Assembly (NCBI GenBank): GCA_009777415.1 | Contig: WRLX01000003.1 | Coordinates: forward strand, 1 to 47,615 | Direction of reading: 5' to 3' | DNA from: Oscillospiraceae bacterium | Lineage (GTDB): Bacteria > Bacillota > Clostridia > Oscillospirales > Ruminococcaceae | DNA length: 47,615 nt | Shown: piece by piece, positions 6,262 to 47,022 of the stretch | How positions within the stretch are numbered: the first letter of the stretch is position 1 | Layout of the letters: the number at the start of each line of letters is the position of its first letter | Made by a program: the position numbers and the translations under genes | The notes under the pieces: generated by a model | The model's input: only the letters and a program-made list of their open reading frames with translations | Told to the model about the DNA's origin: nothing | The model's database searches: none

Positions 6262-6465
6262 TTAATCGTTTGAACGACCGGGTCTGCGCCTCGTCAGTCT
6301 GTTAAATTCCACTATCTTGTCCTTAATCTCGTCAAGTTTTTCCGACACAATGTAACTGTGTCCGTTGTTCATGGTAATCACCGTGTCGGGGGTCTCTTGT
6401 GCCGTTTCAATAAGCAACTCATTAATGAGTATTTCTTTTCCGCCGAGTTTAGTCAATAAAATCAT
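6262..6465 (-). CDS. flbD: Small flagellar protein FlbD
   Basis: FlbD is a small protein of unknown mechanism found between flgE and motA in many Clostridia and spirochaetes. The protein has 67 residues and begins MILLTKLGGKEILINELLIE, followed by TPDTVITMNNGHSYIV, both typical of the family. An in-frame ATG 27 nt upstream would add nine residues, but that stretch is the ribosome-binding repeat itself, so ATG 6465 is the better start. It follows GAAGGGGCAGGGG by a normal distance. Two tandem 76-bp leader cassettes precede the gene. Confidence 0.9.
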   Translation of the reverse strand: MILLTKLGGKEILINELLIETAQETPDTVITMNNGHSYIVSEKLDEIKDKIVEFNRLTRRRPGRSND

Positions 6466-6655
6466 AGTTTTACCCCTGCCCCTTCTGCACAATCGGGTGT
6501 TAAAAGTTTCGTTTTCCGCATTTACTCGGATTTACTTTCAAACTTTTACCCCTGCCCCTTCTGCACAATCGGGTGTTAAAAGTTTCGTTTTCCGCATTTA
6601 CTCGGATTTACTCTCAAACTTTTACCCCTGACCCTTCTGCACAATTAGCAATAAT
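6466..6655 (-). repeat. Tandem 76-nt leader cassettes before flbD
   Basis: Two full 76-bp units and a third partial unit lie between flgE and flbD (TTTTACCCC on the plus strand at 6468, 6544 and 6620). On the minus strand each has GGGTCAGGGG or GGGGCAGGGG, TAAAAGT, a TTG start, the 13-residue ORF (L/M)(R/K)VNPSKCGKRNF with TAA, then TTGTGCAGAAGGGGCAGGGG. The frame after the first stop encodes IVQKGQG and closes with TAA 4 nt before the next start. AAAAGTTT near the TTG start and AAACTTTT at the first stop are perfect complements, so each unit could fold as an 8-bp stem enclosing most of the peptide ORF. Confidence 0.85.
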
Positions 6656-16119: not shown

Positions 16120-17757
16120 CTAAACTTCGTCGTCGCGCAGCCATGTTCTTATCAATTGTGCGATAATATCCGGATTTGTTTTTGAAAACTCTTTTATTTC
16201 GCGCTTGAGCACAACATCCTTTGTATCGGTTTCCTCAAGCAGACTTTGCAGTTCAAATGCATCTTGGTCGGGAATAACCGGCTGAAATGAATCATCGCTG
16301 ATATATCCGCCCGCGCCTTCTGTTGCATACGCCATTGTGCGGTTGCGGACAAAACGTTTTTTCTTAGAGCCGGATGTAGTTATCGCCAAGATAAACAAAA
16401 TTACCAAAAGCACGCCCAATGCTACAATAATCCATATAAGGATGTTGCGTGTCATGTCGCCCGATTCGAAACCGATTCGGTCTCCCGGAGTCTGGCTGAG
16501 GGCGAAAACTCGCGTTGCCACAGTAACTTCCATCGCGCCTGTTGCGTTTTGGACAATTCCCTGCCACGTTTCAATTTCGGCGGGGGCAAGCGGCTCGGAA
16601 TCGACTACAAGAGAAGCAGTCGTTCTTTTTATCCGCAGACCCGTATTCTTATAGGTTTCGAGCCGTCTGTTAATCTCGTGGTACACATCCCGTCCCCATT
16701 CCACGTAAAACTCTCCACCCGGCTCTACTTCGGGGACTGTCGGGTAATCGGGGGCAACGTCCCCGTTGTTGGGAAACCCTATCAATCCGCCGTCTAACGC
16801 AGTTCCTCCCGCCGCGGCTTTTTCCGAAATAGTCCTTATAATTCCGCCGTCAAGCCCTTCCACAGGTGTAAATATCTCTTCAATTACTTCTCCGTCATCG
16901 CTGAAGTCCAACTCAACATTAACCGCAACATAGTAGCCGCCTTCGCCCCATACAGCCGCCAACAGCGGATTAAGCCGCGCCTCGGCGTTATCTGCCATGA
17001 GCGAAATCATGCCCGCCTCCAACGTGAGTCTTTGCTGCATTAATGCGAGGTCATCGCTTGCCCTTCCCGACAAGTCATCGGGTATAAGCTGAATACCATT
17101 TCCGTCTGTTACAGTTATATTATGCTCCTTAATGTCGGGAATAGCGTTTAAAACCATCAAGTGAATCCCTTTTATTTGTTCGTTACTGAGCGTTTGACCC
17201 GCTTTCAAGGTGAGCATCACAGTTGCACGCGGTTCTTGCCTGTCTTCTACCATTACGTAATTCTGAGAGTTTGGAATATGTAATATTACCATTGCACTCT
17301 CAACCTGGGGAATACTTGTCATTTGCGCCATTATCCATTCTTGGAGTTGATGCTTGGCTTTTTCGTTCTTGTCCCTGTCTGTCGAGAACATACTGACACC
17401 GGTGTCCCACGTGTCATAGTTAAATCCTGGACGCGGCAAACCTGCATCAACAATAGTTGTACGCGCAAGAACGACAACATTTTCAGGTACAAGAACATCA
17501 TTGTTAAGATTAGTCCTGACATCGGCAATCCCCGCCGTCGCCAAAACATTGGTTATTTCAAGTGCTTCATCTGCACCGGATGTTTTACACAGCAAAACAT
17601 GGCTTGATGTGTTCAAAAGTGCTGTTATTACAATTGCGGACACGATAATAACTCCGGCAACCGCGAGAATTACCGCCCTAGTTTTCCCGGCAAGCCCCGT
17701 CCATTTCTCTTTTGTCGTTGTGTATGTTTTCGAGAAAGTCTCTTTCACTTTTTCCAT
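16120..17757 (-). CDS. fliF: Flagellar MS-ring protein FliF
   Basis: FliF builds the MS ring, the base of the flagellum in the cytoplasmic membrane. The protein has 545 residues from ATG 17757. Two membrane segments flank the periplasmic ring-building region: one near residues 28-50 (VILAVAGVIIVSAIVITALL) and one near 440-465 (WIIVALGVLLVILFILAI). RPGFNYDTWDTG and KAKHQLQEWIMAQMTSIPQV are typical FliF blocks. The C-terminal tail (FSKTNPDIIAQLIRTWLRDD) is the FliG-binding peptide. An upstream in-frame ATG (17793) lies within the leader cassette and is a less likely start. Confidence 0.96.
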   Translation of the reverse strand: MEKVKETFSKTYTTTKEKWTGLAGKTRAVILAVAGVIIVSAIVITALLNTSSHVLLCKTSGADEALEITNVLATAGIADVRTNLNNDVLVPENVVVLARTTIVDAGLPRPGFNYDTWDTGVSMFSTDRDKNEKAKHQLQEWIMAQMTSIPQVESAMVILHIPNSQNYVMVEDRQEPRATVMLTLKAGQTLSNEQIKGIHLMVLNAIPDIKEHNITVTDGNGIQLIPDDLSGRASDDLALMQQRLTLEAGMISLMADNAEARLNPLLAAVWGEGGYYVAVNVELDFSDDGEVIEEIFTPVEGLDGGIIRTISEKAAAGGTALDGGLIGFPNNGDVAPDYPTVPEVEPGGEFYVEWGRDVYHEINRRLETYKNTGLRIKRTTASLVVDSEPLAPAEIETWQGIVQNATGAMEVTVATRVFALSQTPGDRIGFESGDMTRNILIWIIVALGVLLVILFILAITTSGSKKKRFVRNRTMAYATEGAGGYISDDSFQPVIPDQDAFELQSLLEETDTKDVVLKREIKEFSKTNPDIIAQLIRTWLRDDEV

Positions 17758-17833
17758 TATTTTACCCTTGACCTTTCTGCACAAACGTGCCATAAAAGTT
17801 TCGTTTTCCCATTCAACAAGTGCCTATTTTCAA
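17758..17833 (-). repeat. 76-nt leader cassette before fliF
   Basis: A copy of the leader family runs from a TTG at 17833 to the fliF ATG at 17757, exactly 76 nt. The TTG frame stops early (LKIGTC). A second start, ATG 17812, opens MGKRNFYGTFVQKGQG with TAA at 17764-17762, 4 nt before the fliF ATG. The C-terminal half (NFYGTFVQKG) is shared with other copies. GCACGTTTGTGC and AGAAAGGTCAAGGG precede the gene start. Upstream (17834-17882) there is AT-rich sequence with no gene. Confidence 0.75.
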
Positions 17834-17882: not shown

Positions 17883-18188
17883 CTAAATTTGCATTCTTAT
17901 AATTTCGTTGTAGGAATCGAGGACTGTATTCCTCACGTTTGTGAGCAATTCTACTGCAAGCCCCGCCTTTTCCTTATTAAGCTGAATCATTTCCAAGTCG
18001 TCTGCCTCACCTAACACTAATCTGATTTTATCCGCCGCCGAAATCTCCGACATTTCAACCGCATCGCCGAAAATACGTGTGAATACATCAAGAAAAGTCG
18101 GTTGCCCCGATGAACCCGTATTAGTAACCGGAGCGGTAACTGTTCCCCCTCCAACCTGCGGAATACCGATAATATTAGTAATGTTCAT
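17883..18188 (-). CDS. fliE: Flagellar hook-basal body protein FliE
   Basis: FliE links the MS ring to the proximal rod. The protein has 101 residues from ATG 18188. The conserved C-terminal region includes VNLNKEKAGLAVELL-type sequence (here IQLNKEKAGLAVELLTNVRN) and TVLDSYNEIIRMQI. The N-terminal part is flexible and Thr/Gly-rich. An upstream ATG (18215) would only add the ribosome-site sequence read as codons. The gene stands between flgC and fliF, as in most flagellar operons. Confidence 0.92.
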   Translation of the reverse strand: MNITNIIGIPQVGGGTVTAPVTNTGSSGQPTFLDVFTRIFGDAVEMSEISAADKIRLVLGEADDLEMIQLNKEKAGLAVELLTNVRNTVLDSYNEIIRMQI

Positions 18189-18225
18189 GTTTTTACCCTT
18201 GTCCTTTCTGCACAATATGTGCCAT
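18189..18225 (-). repeat. Short leader cassette before fliE
   Basis: Only the 3' half of the leader family is present between flgC and fliE. ATG 18225 opens MAHIVQKGQG with TAA at 18195-18193, again 4 nt before the fliE ATG. The Shine-Dalgarno is AGAAAGGACAAGGG, and GCACATATTGTGC gives a small inverted repeat just before it. The frame and the VQKGQG ending match the full-length copies. Confidence 0.65.
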
Positions 18226-18233
18226 AAAAATTA

Positions 18234-18719
18234 TCAGCCGCGACCCATCGCAATTGTTCTTTGTGCCATTTGCACCAAAGTGTCATACACGGCAAGGCTG
18301 TTTAAATAGGAATGCGTCGCCGCCATTAAATCAAGCTGTTCCTCGGCAACGTCGACATTCGGCAGATAATAGTACCCGTCTTCATCGGCGTGAGGATGTG
18401 TCGGGTCGTAAACAGGAGTAAAAGGCGAATCCTCGTCCTCTAACTTCCGCACTTCCGCCACTTGAACTCCGCCGTTTTTCAATTCTCTGCGTTCTGCAAG
18501 AGTCATATTAAGAATGTCGCCGAAACGCCTGTTTCTCCCGATATTTATGTTCTTAAACTCCTTAACTTCGCCGAAAAGAGTAACCTGCCGTCTGTACGGC
18601 CCGCCCTCTTCGGTTTCAGTAGTCGTTGCATTCGCTATGTTTTGGCTTATAACGTCCATTCGCAAGCGTTGCGCGGTAAGCCCGGAAACAGCCGTATTAA
18701 GATGTGACAAAAAAGCCAT
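18234..18719 (-). CDS. flgC: Flagellar basal-body rod protein FlgC
   Basis: FlgC is a proximal rod subunit. The protein has 161 residues. The N terminus (HLNTAVSGLTAQRLRMDVIS, then QNIANATTTETEEGGPYRRQ) is the rod signature. The C terminus (PNVDVAEEQLDLMAATHSYL, then NSLAVYDTLVQMAQRTIAMG) is the FlgC ending. The central segment is slightly longer than in model proteins. The ATG follows GAGGGAGAAATACG. It follows flgB, but a 162-bp MITE-like element sits between the two genes. Confidence 0.95.
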   Translation of the reverse strand: MAFLSHLNTAVSGLTAQRLRMDVISQNIANATTTETEEGGPYRRQVTLFGEVKEFKNINIGRNRRFGDILNMTLAERRELKNGGVQVAEVRKLEDEDSPFTPVYDPTHPHADEDGYYYLPNVDVAEEQLDLMAATHSYLNSLAVYDTLVQMAQRTIAMGRG

Positions 18720-18744: not shown

Positions 18745-18906
18745 TATAGTCGGTCAGTTTGAGTTTAGTCTGCTGATTTGTGAGCAGATTTTTTGTCAAA
18801 CAAGACGATTTTTGCGCGAATATCCGTGCATATTTAAGTAAAAATCAACGCAGTATGGCGGAAAATATGCCGCAAACGGCGACTAAACTTAAACTGACCG
18901 ACTATA
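18745..18906. mobile_element. MITE-like palindromic element A between flgB and flgC
   Basis: The element is 162 bp with 25-bp terminal inverted repeats (18745-18769 and 18882-18906) that differ at one base; the outer part reads TATAGTCGGTCAGTTT. Flanking TA dinucleotides would fit TA target duplication as in Tc1/mariner-IS630 MITEs. The interior is largely self-complementary (GATTTTT and AAAAATC; AATAT and ATATT). It encodes no protein. From TGCTGAT (18771) to GCGGAAAAT (about 18868) it matches the element at 35758-35926, although the ends of the two elements are unrelated. It lies inside the flagellar operon. Confidence 0.8.
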
Positions 18907-18919
18907 TACAGGTGAACGC

Positions 18920-19288
18920 TTAATTGCGTCTCATCGCCGTCCGCATTGAGCTCATTGAACCCTCTAAATGTGTCATAATCGCATCCTGCCACAGTGCGTT
19001 GCTTTTCAGCATTGCCGCTTGAACCTCATAATCAACATTGTTTTCGTCCGGCTGACCATTGGTAATCTCGTCGACATAAACATCGTTTATCCTTAAATGA
19101 AGCTCTTTCTTAAATTTGGCATTCGGATTCATCTTTTCGCGCAAAACCCCCGAAAAAGTCAAATACTTGGACTTATAGCCGGGTGTGTCAATGTTTGCAA
19201 TATTATGCGCAATTATCTTCTTATTCTCGGCAGAAAAATTCAAACCCTGCTCTAATATCCTAAAAGAAGTCGTATTAAATAACCCCAT
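18920..19288 (-). CDS. flgB: Flagellar basal-body rod protein FlgB
   Basis: FlgB is the membrane-proximal rod subunit and the first gene of this operon. The protein has 122 residues from ATG 19288. The N-terminal rod motif FSAENKKIIAHNIANIDTPG and the C-terminal NNVDYEVQAAMLKSNALWQD are typical. An in-frame ATG 27 nt earlier only translates the Shine-Dalgarno region. A promoter lies at 19435-19463, with a full leader cassette between promoter and gene. Confidence 0.94.
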   Translation of the reverse strand: MGLFNTTSFRILEQGLNFSAENKKIIAHNIANIDTPGYKSKYLTFSGVLREKMNPNAKFKKELHLRINDVYVDEITNGQPDENNVDYEVQAAMLKSNALWQDAIMTHLEGSMSSMRTAMRRN

Positions 19289-19364
19289 GTTTTCACCCAT
19301 GCCCCTTCTGCACAAATGTGCCGTTGAAAGCCTCTTTTCCGCATTTACGCAGATTTACTTTCAA
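19289..19364 (-). repeat. 76-nt leader cassette and leader ORF before flgB
   Basis: TTG 19364 starts an uninterrupted 23-residue ORF (LKVNLRKCGKEAF followed by NGTFVQKGHG). It ends in TGA at 19295-19293, 4 nt before the flgB ATG; start-to-start is 76 nt. It is one of the few copies without an internal stop. The upstream ribosome site for this TTG is poor (AAGAGGATAAAAG). The GCACATTTGTGC palindrome and AGAAGGGGCATGGG lie at the 3' end. As the first translated unit of the operon it could couple flgB translation to a leader peptide. Confidence 0.75.
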
Positions 19365-28652: not shown

Positions 28653-29684
28653 TCACCAAAAAAATTCGCGTTCGTCACGTTGGGGGCGGTTCATTAAACC
28701 TTGCAATGCTTTTTCCGGTGCAAACCCCTCATAGCAGACTTTGTATAGTTGCTCAAAAATGGGAATGTCTATTCCCCTCTCCTTTGCGAGCCGCAACGCA
28801 ATTTTGACACACTCATATCCCTCAACAGTCCCGACCTGTTTTACTGCATCGGACGCAGAAACACCTTGCCCGATTAACAGCCCTGCCCTATGATTGCGGG
28901 AATGCTTGGATGTGCAGGTGACTATTAAATCGCCGACTCCCGCAAGCCCGGTAAAAGTTTGCCACTTTGCCCCGAGAGCAGTCCCCAACCGCTTTATCTC
29001 GGACATTCCTCTTGTCATGATTGCAGCGACTGCATTATCACCTAACCCCATTCCCAATGCAATTCCGCAACAAAGGGCAATGGGGTTTTTCAACGCGCCG
29101 CCCAGCTCGCTCCCCACAATGTCATCGTTTATATAAATCCGAAAACTTTTAGTCTGAAGGGTTGTTTGAATATATTCGGCATACTCTCGCGCAAGGCTTG
29201 CGGCGACTACCGCAGTGGGGCATCCGCGCCCGACTTCCTCCGCGTGGCACGGGCCTGTCAATATTACCATCGGATTCCGCTTGACAAAAACACCTATAAT
29301 CTCCGAAAGTCGGCATATAGGGAGAGTATGTGAACTGCCGCAGTCGTTTTCGCAAACACATTCGGCAAAGCCTTTGCTTACATTTACAACGACTGCATTT
29401 TTCGGAATATAGGGGGCGGCCTCCATGGCGGCTTGCCCGATAAACTTAGACGGGACTGCGAATACTACAATGTCTGCATTGGCGGCTTTTGATATGTCAC
29501 AGGTAAACTCTATCTCAGCGGGTATAGCAATACCCGGGAGCAGTCTTTTGTGTTCGCCCTCACGCTTAATCGTCTCTATCTCTTCCGGGAAATTAGAGTA
29601 ACAGATAACCCTATGCCCGGCGTTGCTCCAAAGTACTGACAAAGCAGTCCCAAATCCACAACCTAAAATAAAAATATTTGCCAC
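28653..29684 (-). CDS. gpsA: NAD(P)-dependent glycerol-3-phosphate dehydrogenase GpsA
   Basis: GpsA reduces dihydroxyacetone phosphate to sn-glycerol 3-phosphate for phospholipid synthesis. The 343-residue protein begins VANIFILGCGFGTALSVLWS, the Rossmann dinucleotide motif. FAVPSKF and NVSKGFAE follow, and the catalytic lysine lies in the ELGGALKNPIALCCGIALGM block. Translation starts at GTG 29684; the longer in-frame reading to 29741 runs through the leader cassette. plsY, whose product uses glycerol 3-phosphate, is immediately upstream, so the pair is a coherent lipid operon with der. Confidence 0.95.
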   Translation of the reverse strand: MANIFILGCGFGTALSVLWSNAGHRVICYSNFPEEIETIKREGEHKRLLPGIAIPAEIEFTCDISKAANADIVVFAVPSKFIGQAAMEAAPYIPKNAVVVNVSKGFAECVCENDCGSSHTLPICRLSEIIGVFVKRNPMVILTGPCHAEEVGRGCPTAVVAASLAREYAEYIQTTLQTKSFRIYINDDIVGSELGGALKNPIALCCGIALGMGLGDNAVAAIMTRGMSEIKRLGTALGAKWQTFTGLAGVGDLIVTCTSKHSRNHRAGLLIGQGVSASDAVKQVGTVEGYECVKIALRLAKERGIDIPIFEQLYKVCYEGFAPEKALQGLMNRPQRDEREFFW

Positions 29685-29760
29685 TTTTTTACCCTTGTCC
29701 TTTCTGCACAAGCATGAAATCAAAAGTTGCGTTTTCCGCATTTACCAAGAACACTTTTAA
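29685..29760 (-). repeat. 76-nt leader cassette before gpsA
   Basis: The copy runs from 29760, where TTA stands in the position of the usual TTG start, to the gpsA GTG, exactly 76 nt. The frame ends LVQKGQG with TAA at 29691-29689, 4 nt before the gene. With the start codon mutated, an internal GTG six nt on is the only nearby start. The AGAAAGGACAAGGG ribosome site is kept. It suggests that the 3' ribosome site is under selection even where the leader ORF is damaged. Confidence 0.7.
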
Positions 29761-32983: not shown

Positions 32984-33077
32984 AAGGGCAGGGGTAAAAG
33001 TTTGAAAGTAAATCTGCGTAAATGCGGAAAAAGAAACTTTTAAAGTACATTTGTGTAGAAAGGGCAGGGGTAAAAAA
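32984..33077 (+). repeat. 76-nt leader cassette before the 33078 gene
   Basis: AGAAAGGGCAGGGG (about 32971-32994) precedes TTG 33002, which opens LKVNLRKCGKRNF with TAA at 33041-33043. GTACATTTGTGTAGAAAGGGCAGGGG then leads to ATG 33078; start-to-start is 76 nt. In the same frame the last codon before the gene is again TAA, 4 nt upstream. Both the leader and the gene thus have nearly identical ribosome sites. Confidence 0.85.
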
Positions 33078-33542
33078 ATGAGTAAATCGGCAAAAATCAG
33101 GATTCCGAAAGATGTAACGGCACTATGTGAGCAAGTCGCAAAGGGGTACGAAAGGCGCAAAAAGGACTATGAAAACAGGAGGATGGACATAATTTACTCG
33201 CACACATCCGGGTTTGAGGGTGCAGTCGGCGGGGCAAGAGGGAACAGTGTATCAGACCCGAGTGCGGCAAAAGCCGAACGGCTTGAAAAACTCGAGGAGA
33301 GCCTTGATGCCAAGTTTGTACGCGCAGTGGAGCGGGCGATTATATCGTTAGGGGCAGACGTTGCGCGGGATTCACGCGAGAAATTACGAAAGGCAGTTCT
33401 GCTTAACTGTGAAAACGGGCATGAATACCCGTATGAGATTTTGGGGATTGACGAATTTTCAAGAAGAGAATTTTACAGAAGGAGGAAAAGTTTTATCGTA
33501 GAAATCGGCGCTGAATTAGGCTTGCTCAACTTTGACAGTTGA
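33078..33542 (+). CDS. Putative phage-type regulator (ArpU/RinA-like)
   Basis: The 154-residue protein is basic and helical. The C-terminal part (IDEFSRREFYRRRKSFIVEI and GAELGLLNF) resembles the end of ArpU/RinA-type late regulators of Gram-positive phages, but I recognise this only by pattern. A Gly/Ala-rich loop near 50-60 separates an N-terminal Lys/Arg-rich helix. It is transcribed divergently from the xre-immA pair across shared operators, like the first early gene of an integrative element. No integrase or other phage genes are present, so it may be a domesticated remnant. Confidence 0.5.
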   Translation: MSKSAKIRIPKDVTALCEQVAKGYERRKKDYENRRMDIIYSHTSGFEGAVGGARGNSVSDPSAAKAERLEKLEESLDAKFVRAVERAIISLGADVARDSREKLRKAVLLNCENGHEYPYEILGIDEFSRREFYRRRKSFIVEIGAELGLLNFDS

Positions 33543-35757: not shown

Positions 35758-35926
35758 TTAAGAACCTGTCTTCTATAAGCAACGTGCTGATAAAACGAGC
35801 GGATTTTTCGTCAGACAAGGCGATTTTTGTGCGAATATCCGTGCATATTTAAGCAAAAATCAACGCGCAGTATGGCGGAAAATCCGCCGTTTTAGCAGTG
35901 TGTTTGCTTATGAAGACAGGTTCTAA
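35758..35926. mobile_element. MITE-like palindromic element B
   Basis: The roughly 169-bp element has a perfect terminal repeat AGAACCTGTCTTC (35761-35773) and GAAGACAGGTTCT (35912-35924), followed by imperfect complementarity. GCGGATTTT and AAAATCCGC, then GATTTTTG and CAAAAATC, continue the palindrome inwards. From TGCTGAT (35785) to GCGGAAAAT (35884) it matches element A at 18745-18906, whose terminal repeats are different. No ORF is present. It makes up much of the gap before the lipoprotein gene. Confidence 0.8.
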
Positions 35927-35931
35927 GACTT

Positions 35932-36049
35932 CTTACAGCACACTCGTGCAGAAAGGGAATGGGTAAAAAGTTTGAGAATCAATCTTCGAATAAATGGGAA
36001 AACGAATTTTTACAGCACACCCGTGCAGAAAGGAAATGGGTAAAAAGTT
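35932..36049 (+). repeat. Leader cassette before the lipoprotein gene
   Basis: A ribosome site CAGAAAGGGAATGGG precedes TTG 35972, which opens an uninterrupted 23-residue ORF (LRINLRINGKTNF then YSTPVQKGNG) with TAA at 36041-36043. The CGTGCAGAAAGG segment recurs 77 nt downstream (35945 and 36022). Six nt separate the stop from ATG 36050; start-to-start is 78 nt. Confidence 0.8.
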
Positions 36050-36607
36050 ATGAAAAAAACTCTGCTTGTTATTCTTTCGGTGATTAGCGTGTTTCTTTTA
36101 GCGGTCAGCGTGACTGTACTCTTCACATCTTGCAGTCACAGTAATGCGCAACCGCTTGAATCCACAACCGAAGCCACAGAACTCACAACAACAGACTCAA
36201 CAACCGCTACTCAGCGGACAACTGCCGCATCGGCAACCACCACTAAAAAAGAAACAACCACAGTTGTAACAACAACACTTGCGGCTACAACATCAAAGAC
36301 TAATAATGCGATACCGGCTAATAATGCACCGGCGGCCGATAATACTCAAGCGGCTAACAACACTCCGCCTCCGCCACAGCCTACCGGCCCGCCACCGACT
36401 AACAACACTCCGCCACCGCAGCAACCTACCAACCCGCCACCTCCTCCACCGCAGCCTACCGCTACCGACCCGCCACCTCCTCCTCCGCAACCTACCGACC
36501 CTCCTCCACCCCCGCCACAGCCTACCGACCCTCCTCCACCTCCACCGCAACCTACCGACCCGCCGCCTCCTCCTCCGGATGACGGCTGTTGCCCGGATTG
36601 CGATTAG
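36050..36607 (+). CDS. Thr/Pro-rich lipoprotein with PPPPPPQPTD repeats
   Basis: The 185-residue protein has a lipoprotein signal peptide; the lipobox is FTSC with C28. A Thr/Ser/Ala-rich segment follows (about 35-80), likely glycosylated. Asn/Ala-rich sequence leads to a Pro-rich wall-spanning part with four copies of PPPPPPQPTD or close variants (encoded by 30-bp tandem repeats, about 36430-36580). The tail is DDGCCPDCD, a compact Cys cluster at the extreme C terminus. No enzymatic domain is visible. It probably acts as a stalk displaying the Cys tip. It is preceded by a leader cassette and followed by one before the next gene. Confidence 0.7.
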   Translation: MKKTLLVILSVISVFLLAVSVTVLFTSCSHSNAQPLESTTEATELTTTDSTTATQRTTAASATTTKKETTTVVTTTLAATTSKTNNAIPANNAPAADNTQAANNTPPPPQPTGPPPTNNTPPPQQPTNPPPPPPQPTATDPPPPPPQPTDPPPPPPQPTDPPPPPPQPTDPPPPPPDDGCCPDCD

Positions 36608-36708: not shown

Positions 36709-36803
36709 CAGAAAGAAAATAGGTAAAATAATGAAAATAATCTATGTAAATGGGAAAACGAACTTTTATGGCACATTTGTGCAGAAAGGGAATGGGTAAA
36801 ATA
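36709..36803 (+). repeat. Leader cassette before the repeat-containing surface protein
   Basis: ATG 36731 opens an uninterrupted 22-residue ORF (MKIIYVNGKTNF then YGTFVQKGNG) with TAA at 36797-36799, 4 nt before ATG 36804. The start-to-start distance is 73 nt. The ribosome site before ATG 36731 is worn (GCAGAAAGAAAATAGG). In another frame ATG codons in the cassette run into the gene and would only extend it by the ribosome-site sequence. GTACTA and TAGTAC (36661-36685) form an inverted repeat upstream, in the otherwise empty gap after the lipoprotein gene. Confidence 0.75.
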
Positions 36804-38657
36804 ATGAAAAAAATATTAACTTTAATGCTTTTAACAGCATTCGTACTTTCGGTTTGTCCTTTTGTGAGCTTTGCCGACACAAAAAACGACCAAATCTTAT
36901 GGATTCTTAACTCGGCACAAGGCAACGGCGAATTCAGCTATAAATTTGAACTCGCACGTACCCAAGCGCAGATTGATGCGGAACAACGCGGTCAAACCGG
37001 TATCGTCGAAGGCAAAGACGGGCATATCAGAGTTTTCCACGAAAATCGTACCGACGGTGTACCTAACGGCACATACACCGAAACTACCAACTCCAATGCA
37101 ATGGCAGTTTTTGCAAGGAATTACAGGCTTCTCACAATTGATACGGCACAGTCATGGTTCATTTTCGAGGGTGACACAATGTGTGGTGTGACAACGACTG
37201 ATTTCAACGGTAATACTGTTACGAAACAAATCAGTGAACTCAAAAACAGCCTCTCGGGGCTTACTGCCAATGCACCACACTCAAATAAAACTCAGCTTTG
37301 GTGGCTGATTGATGCCGCACGAGGCAAAGGCGAGTTTAGTTATGAGTTTGAACTCGCCCCCTCACAAGCGCAGATTGATGCGGGAACTCACGGACAACGC
37401 GGTGTAGTCGAAGGCAAAGACGGGAATATAAGAGTTTACCACCTTAACTCAAACGGAACGTACACCGAAACAACCAACTCAAACGCAATGGCAATCTTCG
37501 CGCGAAATTACAGATTTCTTACTCAACGTAACCACAATCACAACAATGCAGGTCAGCCCGGACGCATTGAGCCGTCATTCCCCGCGTGGTTGGGATTCGA
37601 CAACAACGGTGAGGAATTCGGAAACTCAAACTTTGAGCTTTTCCCGTTAGTGAGCCATGCAACTTTGACAGGGGCGGCAAACCCGTATGAAATGAACCTC
37701 TTGTCTGCTGACACCGAGCGCGAAAAAGCTATGCTGTTCATCTACGAAGGCGGCACTATGAGTGCAGTTCGCTACTATATGCCAAACGGTGATGCAGTGC
37801 TTAAAAAAATCACTAACTTAAAACCCGCGCTTTCGGGGATTGAAGGAATTGCAAACGCAAACCATTCAAATAAAACTCAGCTTTGGTGGATTATTGACTC
37901 AGCCCGCGGCAAAGGCGAATTCAGCTTTAGCTTCGAACTTGAGGACGGCACAAAAGGCAGTGTGCAGGGAAAAGACGGCACAGTGAGCACTTACACCGAT
38001 GACGGCAACGGGACATATAGTGTTGCCCCCGGTTCGGTTGTGGCGACTACATTCGCATCCCGCTTCAAGCTTCTTACTCAATTTAGCCATAATCACAACA
38101 ACGAAACAACTGCGGGCGAACCCGGTTCACGTCCTTTCCCCGCGCCTCACCCCGAATGGCTGGGATTAACCGATAACGGCGTTGGATTTGCCAACGGAAA
38201 CTACGAACTCTTCCCGTTGGTAGCCGAGGCAACATTAACAGGTGCGGCAAACCCGTTTGAAATGAATCTCACACCGGAAAGAGCGACTTCCGGCGAGATT
38301 GAGCGTACAGGCGATATGTTCTTCGTCTACGACAACGGTGTAATGAGTGCGGCTTGTTTTAACAACACTTATATAAAAATATCGAATTTGAAAAATAGTG
38401 TTGAAAGCGCGATTCAGCCTGATTTCATTTTAGGGCGAATCCTCGACAATAACGACGAACCCACAATCTTTGACGTACTTGAAATATTAAAACACATTGT
38501 CGGTATGAACGGCGTGATTAAATCCGGCGGACCGGACTCCCGTGCATGGAATGCGGCGTTGATTACGCCTGAGTCGCAAGTGAGCGGTACGCCTACTATA
38601 TTTGATGTGCTGGAGATTTTGAAGTATATCGTGGGGATGGATAGTTTGGTTGGATAG
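36804..38657 (+). CDS. Surface protein with three repeats and dockerin-like C terminus
   Basis: The 617-residue protein has a signal peptide (about 1-24, cleavage near FADT). Three internal repeats begin DQILWILNSAQGNGEFSYKF, TQLWWLIDAARGKGEFSYEF and TQLWWIIDSARGKGEFSFSF. Repeats one and two also share GKDGxIRVxH, GTYTETTNSNAMAxFARNYR, and two and three share LFPLVxxATLTGAANP. The C-terminal 75 residues contain two copies of TIFDVLEILKHIVGM-type helices with a preceding Asn/Asp loop, a degenerate dockerin-like pair that also ends the LRR protein at 43231. It probably attaches to a scaffold or the cell surface. I do not recognise the repeat. Confidence 0.7.
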   Translation: MKKILTLMLLTAFVLSVCPFVSFADTKNDQILWILNSAQGNGEFSYKFELARTQAQIDAEQRGQTGIVEGKDGHIRVFHENRTDGVPNGTYTETTNSNAMAVFARNYRLLTIDTAQSWFIFEGDTMCGVTTTDFNGNTVTKQISELKNSLSGLTANAPHSNKTQLWWLIDAARGKGEFSYEFELAPSQAQIDAGTHGQRGVVEGKDGNIRVYHLNSNGTYTETTNSNAMAIFARNYRFLTQRNHNHNNAGQPGRIEPSFPAWLGFDNNGEEFGNSNFELFPLVSHATLTGAANPYEMNLLSADTEREKAMLFIYEGGTMSAVRYYMPNGDAVLKKITNLKPALSGIEGIANANHSNKTQLWWIIDSARGKGEFSFSFELEDGTKGSVQGKDGTVSTYTDDGNGTYSVAPGSVVATTFASRFKLLTQFSHNHNNETTAGEPGSRPFPAPHPEWLGLTDNGVGFANGNYELFPLVAEATLTGAANPFEMNLTPERATSGEIERTGDMFFVYDNGVMSAACFNNTYIKISNLKNSVESAIQPDFILGRILDNNDEPTIFDVLEILKHIVGMNGVIKSGGPDSRAWNAALITPESQVSGTPTIFDVLEILKYIVGMDSLVG

Positions 38658-46300: not shown

Positions 46301-46539
46301 AGGGCATGGTCATAAGTTTGAAAATAAATCTACGTAAATGGGAAAACGAATTCTTATGGCACATTTGTGCAGAAAGGGCATGGTCATAAGTTTGAAAACA
46401 AATCTACGTAAATGGGAAAACGAATTTTTATGGCACATTTGTGCAGAAAGGGCATGGTCATAAGTTTGAAAACAAATCTACGTAAATGGGAAAACGAATT
46501 TTTATGGAACATTTGTGCAGAAAGGGCATGGGTAAAAAA
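46301..46539 (+). repeat. Three tandem 74-bp leader cassettes before the 46540 gene
   Basis: Units 46301-46374, 46375-46448 and 46449-46522 are nearly identical and a partial unit leads to ATG 46540. TTG starts lie at 46318, 46392 and 46466, all 74 nt apart and 74 nt from the gene. The first two ORFs encode LK(I/T)NLRKWENEF and LWHICAERAWS with TAA 2 nt before the next TTG. The third, because GGTCATAA became GGGTAAAA, runs on and stops in a TGA overlapping the gene start (ATGA). This is a chain of three leaders that could hand ribosomes on to the gene. It fills the 315-nt gap with the divergent promoter at 46263-46291. Confidence 0.9.
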
Positions 46540-47022
46540 ATGAAAAAAAAGATGATTTTTATATCGATTTCGGTTGCGGTTGCAGTCATTGCCGTAGCGG
46601 CTTATAAACTCTTCAATCCGCCCGTTGACAGTGTACCGTTGCAGAAACTTCAAGAGGAAATGTTCCTTTACGACAACTGGGCTGTCTTCCAAAAAAGCAC
46701 CGGCAGCCCTGTTATGGATGAGCGAGTTGCCGTTTATGCCGACAAAATGCTGGAGGAAGCGCGAAACAGCGGAATCGGGTTCAGCGAAGCTTCCCGCTAT
46801 GACTTGGGCATAGTTTTAGTGGACTTTGACGACGATGAGTCGGGCGAGTGGTTCAGGCGCAACTCATGGCGATTTGGTTTTAATTATCAAGGTGAGCGGG
46901 ATATGCAGGATAATGAGGCGGATTTCCGCTTTGTAGGCGTGTTCCCCGCCGAGCAAATGTATTACTCGGGCGTAAAGCCGGACGAGTATGCTGAGTTCCT
47001 TTCTTATCACGCTTTTATATAA
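46540..47022 (+). CDS. Small membrane-anchored protein of unknown function
   Basis: The 160-residue protein has an N-terminal basic end and one hydrophobic helix (IFISISVAVAVIAVAAYKLF), most likely a membrane anchor. The external part is acidic: QKLQEEMFLYDNWAVFQKST, then MLEEARNSGIGFSEASRYDL and IVLVDFDDDESGEWFRRNSW. There is no Cys lipobox and no recognised domain. It is the only gene in the window with three leader cassettes, which may mean that its translation is finely adjusted. The tRNA-Gly gene follows. Confidence 0.6.
   Translation: MKKKMIFISISVAVAVIAVAAYKLFNPPVDSVPLQKLQEEMFLYDNWAVFQKSTGSPVMDERVAVYADKMLEEARNSGIGFSEASRYDLGIVLVDFDDDESGEWFRRNSWRFGFNYQGERDMQDNEADFRFVGVFPAEQMYYSGVKPDEYAEFLSYHAFI

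Follow-up and report, generated by a model that had tools for sequence, protein, structure and literature searches.

The two palindromic elements A and B of the window (the whole stretch of DNA that was analysed, 47,615 nt) are probably members of one superfamily of non-autonomous hairpin transposons, in which the ends are exchanged, the core is inherited and the transposase acts in trans. The sequence-only reading had claimed that A and B have a common core and different ends, and this was borne out by a whole-genome search: the cores are 91% identical over 85 bp (E 2.7e-28), while the ends are unrelated, with a similarity not above chance. A common core of about 100 bp had been proposed; the core is indeed common, but the core proper comprises only about 88–89 bp (Table 1), and the TGCTGAT regarded as its start is part of the inner arm, which is only weakly common to A and B. 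The arms of element A, TATAGTCGGTCAGTTTGAGTTTAGTC, have a length of 26 bp, and the TA at either end acts as target duplication. For element B the inverted-repeat arms are AGAACCTGTCTTC.../...GAAGACAGGTTCT with the target duplication TAA, and its core contains two additional bases (GC) compared to the consensus AACGCAGTATGG.

Table 1. Positions of elements A and B and of their parts in the window
Feature	Position	Strand	Remarks
Element A, 162-bp palindromic MITE, end type TATAGTCGGTC	18745..18906	+	IS630-family end-type match
A, left inverted-repeat arm	18745..18770	+	96% complementary
A, right inverted-repeat arm	18881..18906	-	
A, conserved core	18782..18866	+	91% to B core; core covariance model 100.3 bits
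Element B, 164-bp palindromic MITE, end type AGAACCTGTCTTC	35761..35924	+	
B, left inverted-repeat end	35761..35781	+	
B, right inverted-repeat end	35904..35924	-	
B, left target duplication TAA, last A common with repeat	35759..35761	.	
B, right target duplication TAA, first T common with repeat	35924..35926	.	
B, conserved core, contains TTTTTCGTCAGACAAGGC and AACGCGCAGTATGGCGGAAAA	35797..35884	+	core covariance model 103 bits

Two further kinds of repeats were observed in the window. A repeat of 74–76 bp, dispersed as well as in tandem and carrying GCACATTTGTGC and AGAAAGGGCATGGGTAAAA, is present at 6458-6594, 17750-17810, 18181-18241, 19281-19341, 29677-29737, 33021-33088, 35914-36058, 36747-36814 and 46335-46550; on either strand it directly precedes the starts of genes and appears to carry the ribosome-binding region, and one of its copies adjoins element B. 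Additionally, tandem repeats of 30–45 bp encoding proline-rich stretches are located at 36404-36589, inside the frame 36050-36607.

The copies of the core in the source genome were collected and their ends were clustered, as had been suggested together with the original observation. The assembly of this genome has a size of 1.78 Mb in 162 contigs, is 87% complete and is broken at repeats. The core pattern matched at 63 places, compared to none for the reversed control pattern, and at least seven end types were found around the one core, several of them in multiple copies: AGAACCTGTCTTC (B), TATAGTCGGTC (A), AGAAGCTGTGTTC, AGAGCCTGTTTAGATTC, TATAGTCGTTTAAC, TAGACCTCTTGCGTAATC, TAGACCTCCTTGG and TATACTCATTAACG. 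A single dominant end type accompanied by a decayed copy was not seen among them. Because several end types are each present in many copies, neither A nor B is a chimeric or decayed copy, and this candidate explanation was rejected. About 20 further clearly distinct end types were identified in related genomes, i.e. Oscillospiraceae assemblies from termite gut, rumen and chicken, the isolate Lutispora saccharofermentans, and others. The length of the 87 elements measured was between 158 and 166 bp, mostly 161–163 bp, with a fixed architecture of a left arm of 35–37 bp, a core of 88–89 bp and a right arm of 37–38 bp. Inner arms such as GAGTGGATTT are common to several end types. Since the end types are related to one another, counts over end types are not independent.

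The elements have the usual properties of MITEs, being shorter than 500 bp, non-coding, bordered by terminal inverted repeats and target duplications and dispersed in many copies (the 63 places in the source genome). They deviate in one respect: instead of conserved ends that define the family and an interior that is free to vary, the interior is conserved and the ends vary. The reversal of the usual MITE pattern that had been noticed for A and B is general beyond this pair. In some cores an additional hairpin of about 60 nt (GTGTCGGCGGCTTCGCCGTCGAGCAGGCTGCTTGAAGTC), a second, nested palindromic element, was observed as an insertion at one spot of the core, CGCAG/TATGG (carriers L066/L067 in the source genome, C76; C14, C16, L085, L094, L104 and L110). 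Moreover, exact 16-mers TATAGTCGGTCAGTTT are present at L049, L053, L056 and L069 (source genome C10, C16, C22 and C88), where no partner end was found within 1.2–1.5 kb; they represent either remnants or the termini of longer elements. The copy at L049 breaks off at the 75-bp repeat and comprises one half of a core element.

In order to follow the core across genomes, a covariance model of the core was used. Matches were obtained in 72 of 391 genomes of the class, representing 47 of 222 genera and often with at least 10 copies each, and in 17 of 399 genomes of the phylum; these matches bring other ends again (GTAAACACTGATTAAAT, TAGCCTGACGCTTCC, TAGTGCCCTGTCAACC and more). Most of the reported matches score between 45 and 105 bits, and the best score in 519 kb of unrelated viral contigs, which served as false-positive control, was 15 bits. 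No core was detected in viral contigs or in phages. A sequence search that started from a core element of a different class within the phylum led to plasmids of Streptomyces (50 bp, 88%, E 2e-6). The Streptomyces elements again have the architecture of about 162 bp with a constant core and variable ends, and a search with one of them matches the others solely over the core, because their ends differ. The core pattern was also present in an Acidobacteriota assembly (L163; JAISUT010000010.1, 4596-4667), which results either from a true transfer or from wrong binning of the contig.

Two readings of the A/B pair had been offered, namely one core carried by different transposases, or a core that itself moves and recruits flanking palindromes; the former is supported by the ends, the latter was not supported (see below). 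Two end types match elements of the IS5 family and one matches an element of the IS630 family, with differing duplications (TNA, ANT and TA), which argues for one core being mobilised by different transposases, and at least 17 changes of end class on the core tree point the same way. The search for transposases flanked by each end type thus yielded partners for three types (TAGRCCTTGTTTGA, AGAGCYTGTTGACAC and TATAGTCG) and none for the type of B. In an uncultured bacterium (G406), an autonomous IS5-family element of 851 bp with two overlapping transposase frames and the ends TAGACCTTGTTTGAAAAAT directly adjoins a core-MITE with the ends TAGGCCTTGTTTGAAAATT. Related IS5-family elements from the same bacterial family carry the ends TTAGAGCCTGTTGACACT, which match the core-MITE type AGAGCTTGTTGACACT. 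The end TATAGTCGATTAACTTAAAAAACC, which belongs to the class of element A, was found in G401 at a distance of 14 bp from the stop of IS630-family frames that contain the motif YSPDLNPIE; these IS630-family partners are fragments at contig edges, and the core-MITE found in G401 has another end type. At L192 only about the outer 19 bp are common to the IS and the adjoining MITE, and the usual origin of MITEs as internal-deletion derivatives of an IS was therefore rejected, the subterminal identity to the parent IS being absent there.

In the source genome, with its 87% complete and repeat-broken assembly, no autonomous partner was detected for any end type, the exact ends of A and B included. 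Partners were likewise not found for the end type of B, AGAACCTGTCTTC, in any genome searched, nor for the Streptomyces end types. Among the other PF01609 transposases of carrier genomes only L192 matched, and screening viral contigs with the end patterns brought up no usable autonomous partner. Target-site duplications were found above shuffled pairing for two classes: a TNA duplication is present in 21/28 elements of the AGAACC/AGAGCC class compared to 12.2 after shuffling (0/5000), and an ANT duplication in 13/18 elements of the TAGACC class compared to 7.3 (9/5000). In the TATA class the target duplication TA is located inside the end itself.

The history of the end exchange was analysed with a core tree of 86 elements, which contains at least 17 end-class changes, the least possible number being 3; several changes per class are required even if only the well-supported branches are considered. 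With about 94 columns as its basis, the tree leaves many forks open, so that the exact number of changes is soft; the mixing of the classes is not. The mean core similarity was 0.746 for elements with the same host and different end classes and thus higher than the 0.695 for elements of the same class from different hosts. It is unlikely that all elements descend from one ancient MITE whose ends diverged stepwise with diversifying transposases, with no switch between families and with a slower drift of the core. Graded series of ends do exist among the IS5-like elements and likewise among those of the TATA set, and the inner arms common to several end types would be expected as well. However, IS5-like and IS630-like ends are wholly different, as are their duplications (TNA/ANT compared to TA), the classes are mixed on the core tree with its 17 changes, and the cores track the host more than the end class.

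The whole element forms one hairpin fold with z-scores of -12 and -14. Over 32 end types 92% of the cells pair, and covariation amounts to 336 two-sided changes, compared to 109 in shuffled controls and at most 102 for slid pairings, i.e. it exceeds both controls as expected of a structured RNA. In and beside the internal loop the core contains an invariant sequence, ACAAGGC opposite AACGCAGTAT. The forward strand folds better in 41/41 end types, by a mean of 20.8 kcal/mol, and in 13/13 of the Streptomyces elements. The outer 20 pairs vary from type to type, and among them G-T was counted 56 times and A-C 14 times; G-T is tolerated better than A-C both in folded RNA and in single-stranded DNA. 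Two U-G pairs are conserved, in 28/32 and 26/32 end types. The strong covariation together with the strand asymmetry in 41/41 end types points to selection on a strand-specific hairpin, and judging from the modelled folds it appears to be such a hairpin, of RNA or of single-stranded DNA, that is under selection. An orientation bias relative to neighbouring genes or to GC skew was not found, so that read-through from the host is no obvious source of RNA. In two two-hairpin relatives of 277–286 bp the strand asymmetry is little or absent. In relatives of this length (L330-L341; G437, G435) a second conserved hairpin domain, CGGATTGTCG..AGGCGNCAGCCT..GCACC, lies between the left end and the core and is common to different bacterial families. 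Within the internal loop of the core of element B, GAC (35814-35816) is opposite AGTA (35869-35872); the same letters occur in the sarcin-ricin (bulged-G) motif of RNA, which is a lead only, as ordinary pairing is possible too.

Two other explanations of the conserved fold were considered, both of low probability. The strand asymmetry might result from strand-biased mutation, C to T on an exposed strand, rather than from selection on the fold; one-sided deamination would leave an excess of G-T over A-C too, but the conservation of the two U-G pairs (28/32, 26/32) and pair changes on both sides far above the controls speak against it. Equally improbable is a functional non-coding RNA or regulatory hairpin of the host, dispersed by transposons by chance and kept by selection at the level of the host. 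The strong covariation, the strand asymmetry, the near-invariant sequence of the internal loop and the intergenic position of the copies near genes would all fit such a host RNA; its distribution is nevertheless very patchy within a family, with the near-exact motif in 5/398 genomes, many near-identical copies are present per genome, the orientation relative to genes is unbiased, and no single-copy syntenic form was seen.

The possibility that the core itself moves was examined by means of cores without ends and ends without core. Three identical coreless copies of 74 bp with TATAGTCG ends were found in the source genome (C23:18199-18272, C30:10315-10388 and C140:2680-2753; the sequences of the C23 and C30 copies were read and that of the C140 copy was deduced from matching ends and spacing), and one coreless copy of 59 bp is located at C45:2128. 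A complete core outside of inverted-repeat ends was not found among the copies examined, the exceptions being cut by contig ends or truncated, and some seemingly end-less cores turned out to be the two-hairpin relatives of 277–286 bp with ends of their own. The core as independently mobile element was rejected on this ground, and the constant length and ends that move coreless speak further against the suggestion that it recruits palindromes. Very improbable, accordingly, is a nested insertion of a mobile core into existing palindromes, which the coreless 74-bp and 59-bp versions might suggest: the complete cores examined all lay within inverted-repeat ends, the element length is constant, the core passes into the arms gradually and without sharp borders, the stem pairing covaries over the core-arm border, and the 74-bp form is compatible with a deletion at the hairpin.

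For the superfamily with exchanged ends, the following mode of propagation is proposed. The outer 15–20 bp would be whichever end a DDE transposase of the host lineage reads, the readable ends being IS5-like (3-bp TNA or ANT duplication), IS630-like (TA) and others, and the matching transposase would move the element in trans. The inner core of about 88 bp would be inherited through repeated end exchange and kept by selection on the folded form of one strand. As the length stays constant and the arms remain complementary, an arm might first be replaced and its sequence then transferred to the other arm through the palindrome, by template switching or recombination. The core hairpin may bind a common host factor and thereby aid persistence under any transposase; that it would do so as an RNA hairpin is a tentative suggestion of somewhat less than even probability, and possibly it acts as a strand-specific hairpin of single-stranded DNA. 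A more far-reaching interpretation, which we regard as rather doubtful, is that of a selfish non-coding RNA or single-stranded DNA hairpin that persists across phyla by changing its transposase, with the folded core as the heritable unit and the ends as replaceable parts.

Both the classification and the detection of bacterial MITEs rely on the ends, and under this practice a superfamily whose common feature is its interior would not be recognised as a unit but would be scattered over dozens of unrelated families. It would also represent a testable case of a transposon parasite outliving each transposase, and it hints at a host factor or function that recognises the conserved hairpin in Bacillota and Streptomyces. 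The elements matched no Rfam family at curated score, and the matches below threshold, to plant miRNA or sRNA models, had weak E-values. In the literature searched, which lay mostly outside subscription papers where single end types may be described, no core sequences were found in a relevant context.

Prokaryotic MITEs such as Correia/NEMIS, RUP and ERIC (PMC10969869, PMC2229807) are likewise shorter than 200 bp and non-coding, with inverted-repeat ends and target duplications, and have in common with the core elements the long hairpin, the intergenic position and the mobilisation in trans; for RUP the use of an IS630-family transposase was proposed (PMC2229807). The MITEs of these studies are described by their ends (PMC10969869, PMC2229807), which are conserved, while their interiors are variable or decaying, whereas the core elements exchange their ends and retain a conserved interior in different phyla. 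REP/REPIN sequences with RAYT transposases (PMC3733652) are also imperfect intergenic hairpins with a strand-specific fold; the core elements differ from them by inverted-repeat ends and target duplications, and no tagged REP ends were seen. The IS5 family (two-frame, IS427-like) has the ends and the 3-bp duplications of several core-element types, but its interior is the transposase without a core, and the match is limited to about the outer 19 bp. Similarly, the IS630 family has TATAGTCG ends and a TA target, and its transposase, which carries the YSPDLNPIE motif, stops 14 bp before the end; it differs in that the match does not extend beyond about the outermost 18 bp. In eukaryotes, SINEs such as Alu are structured non-coding modules that borrow the mobility machinery of other elements. 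The core elements, which have no known parent RNA, would borrow their mobility likewise, but by means of DNA transposases and inverted repeats instead of reverse transcription.
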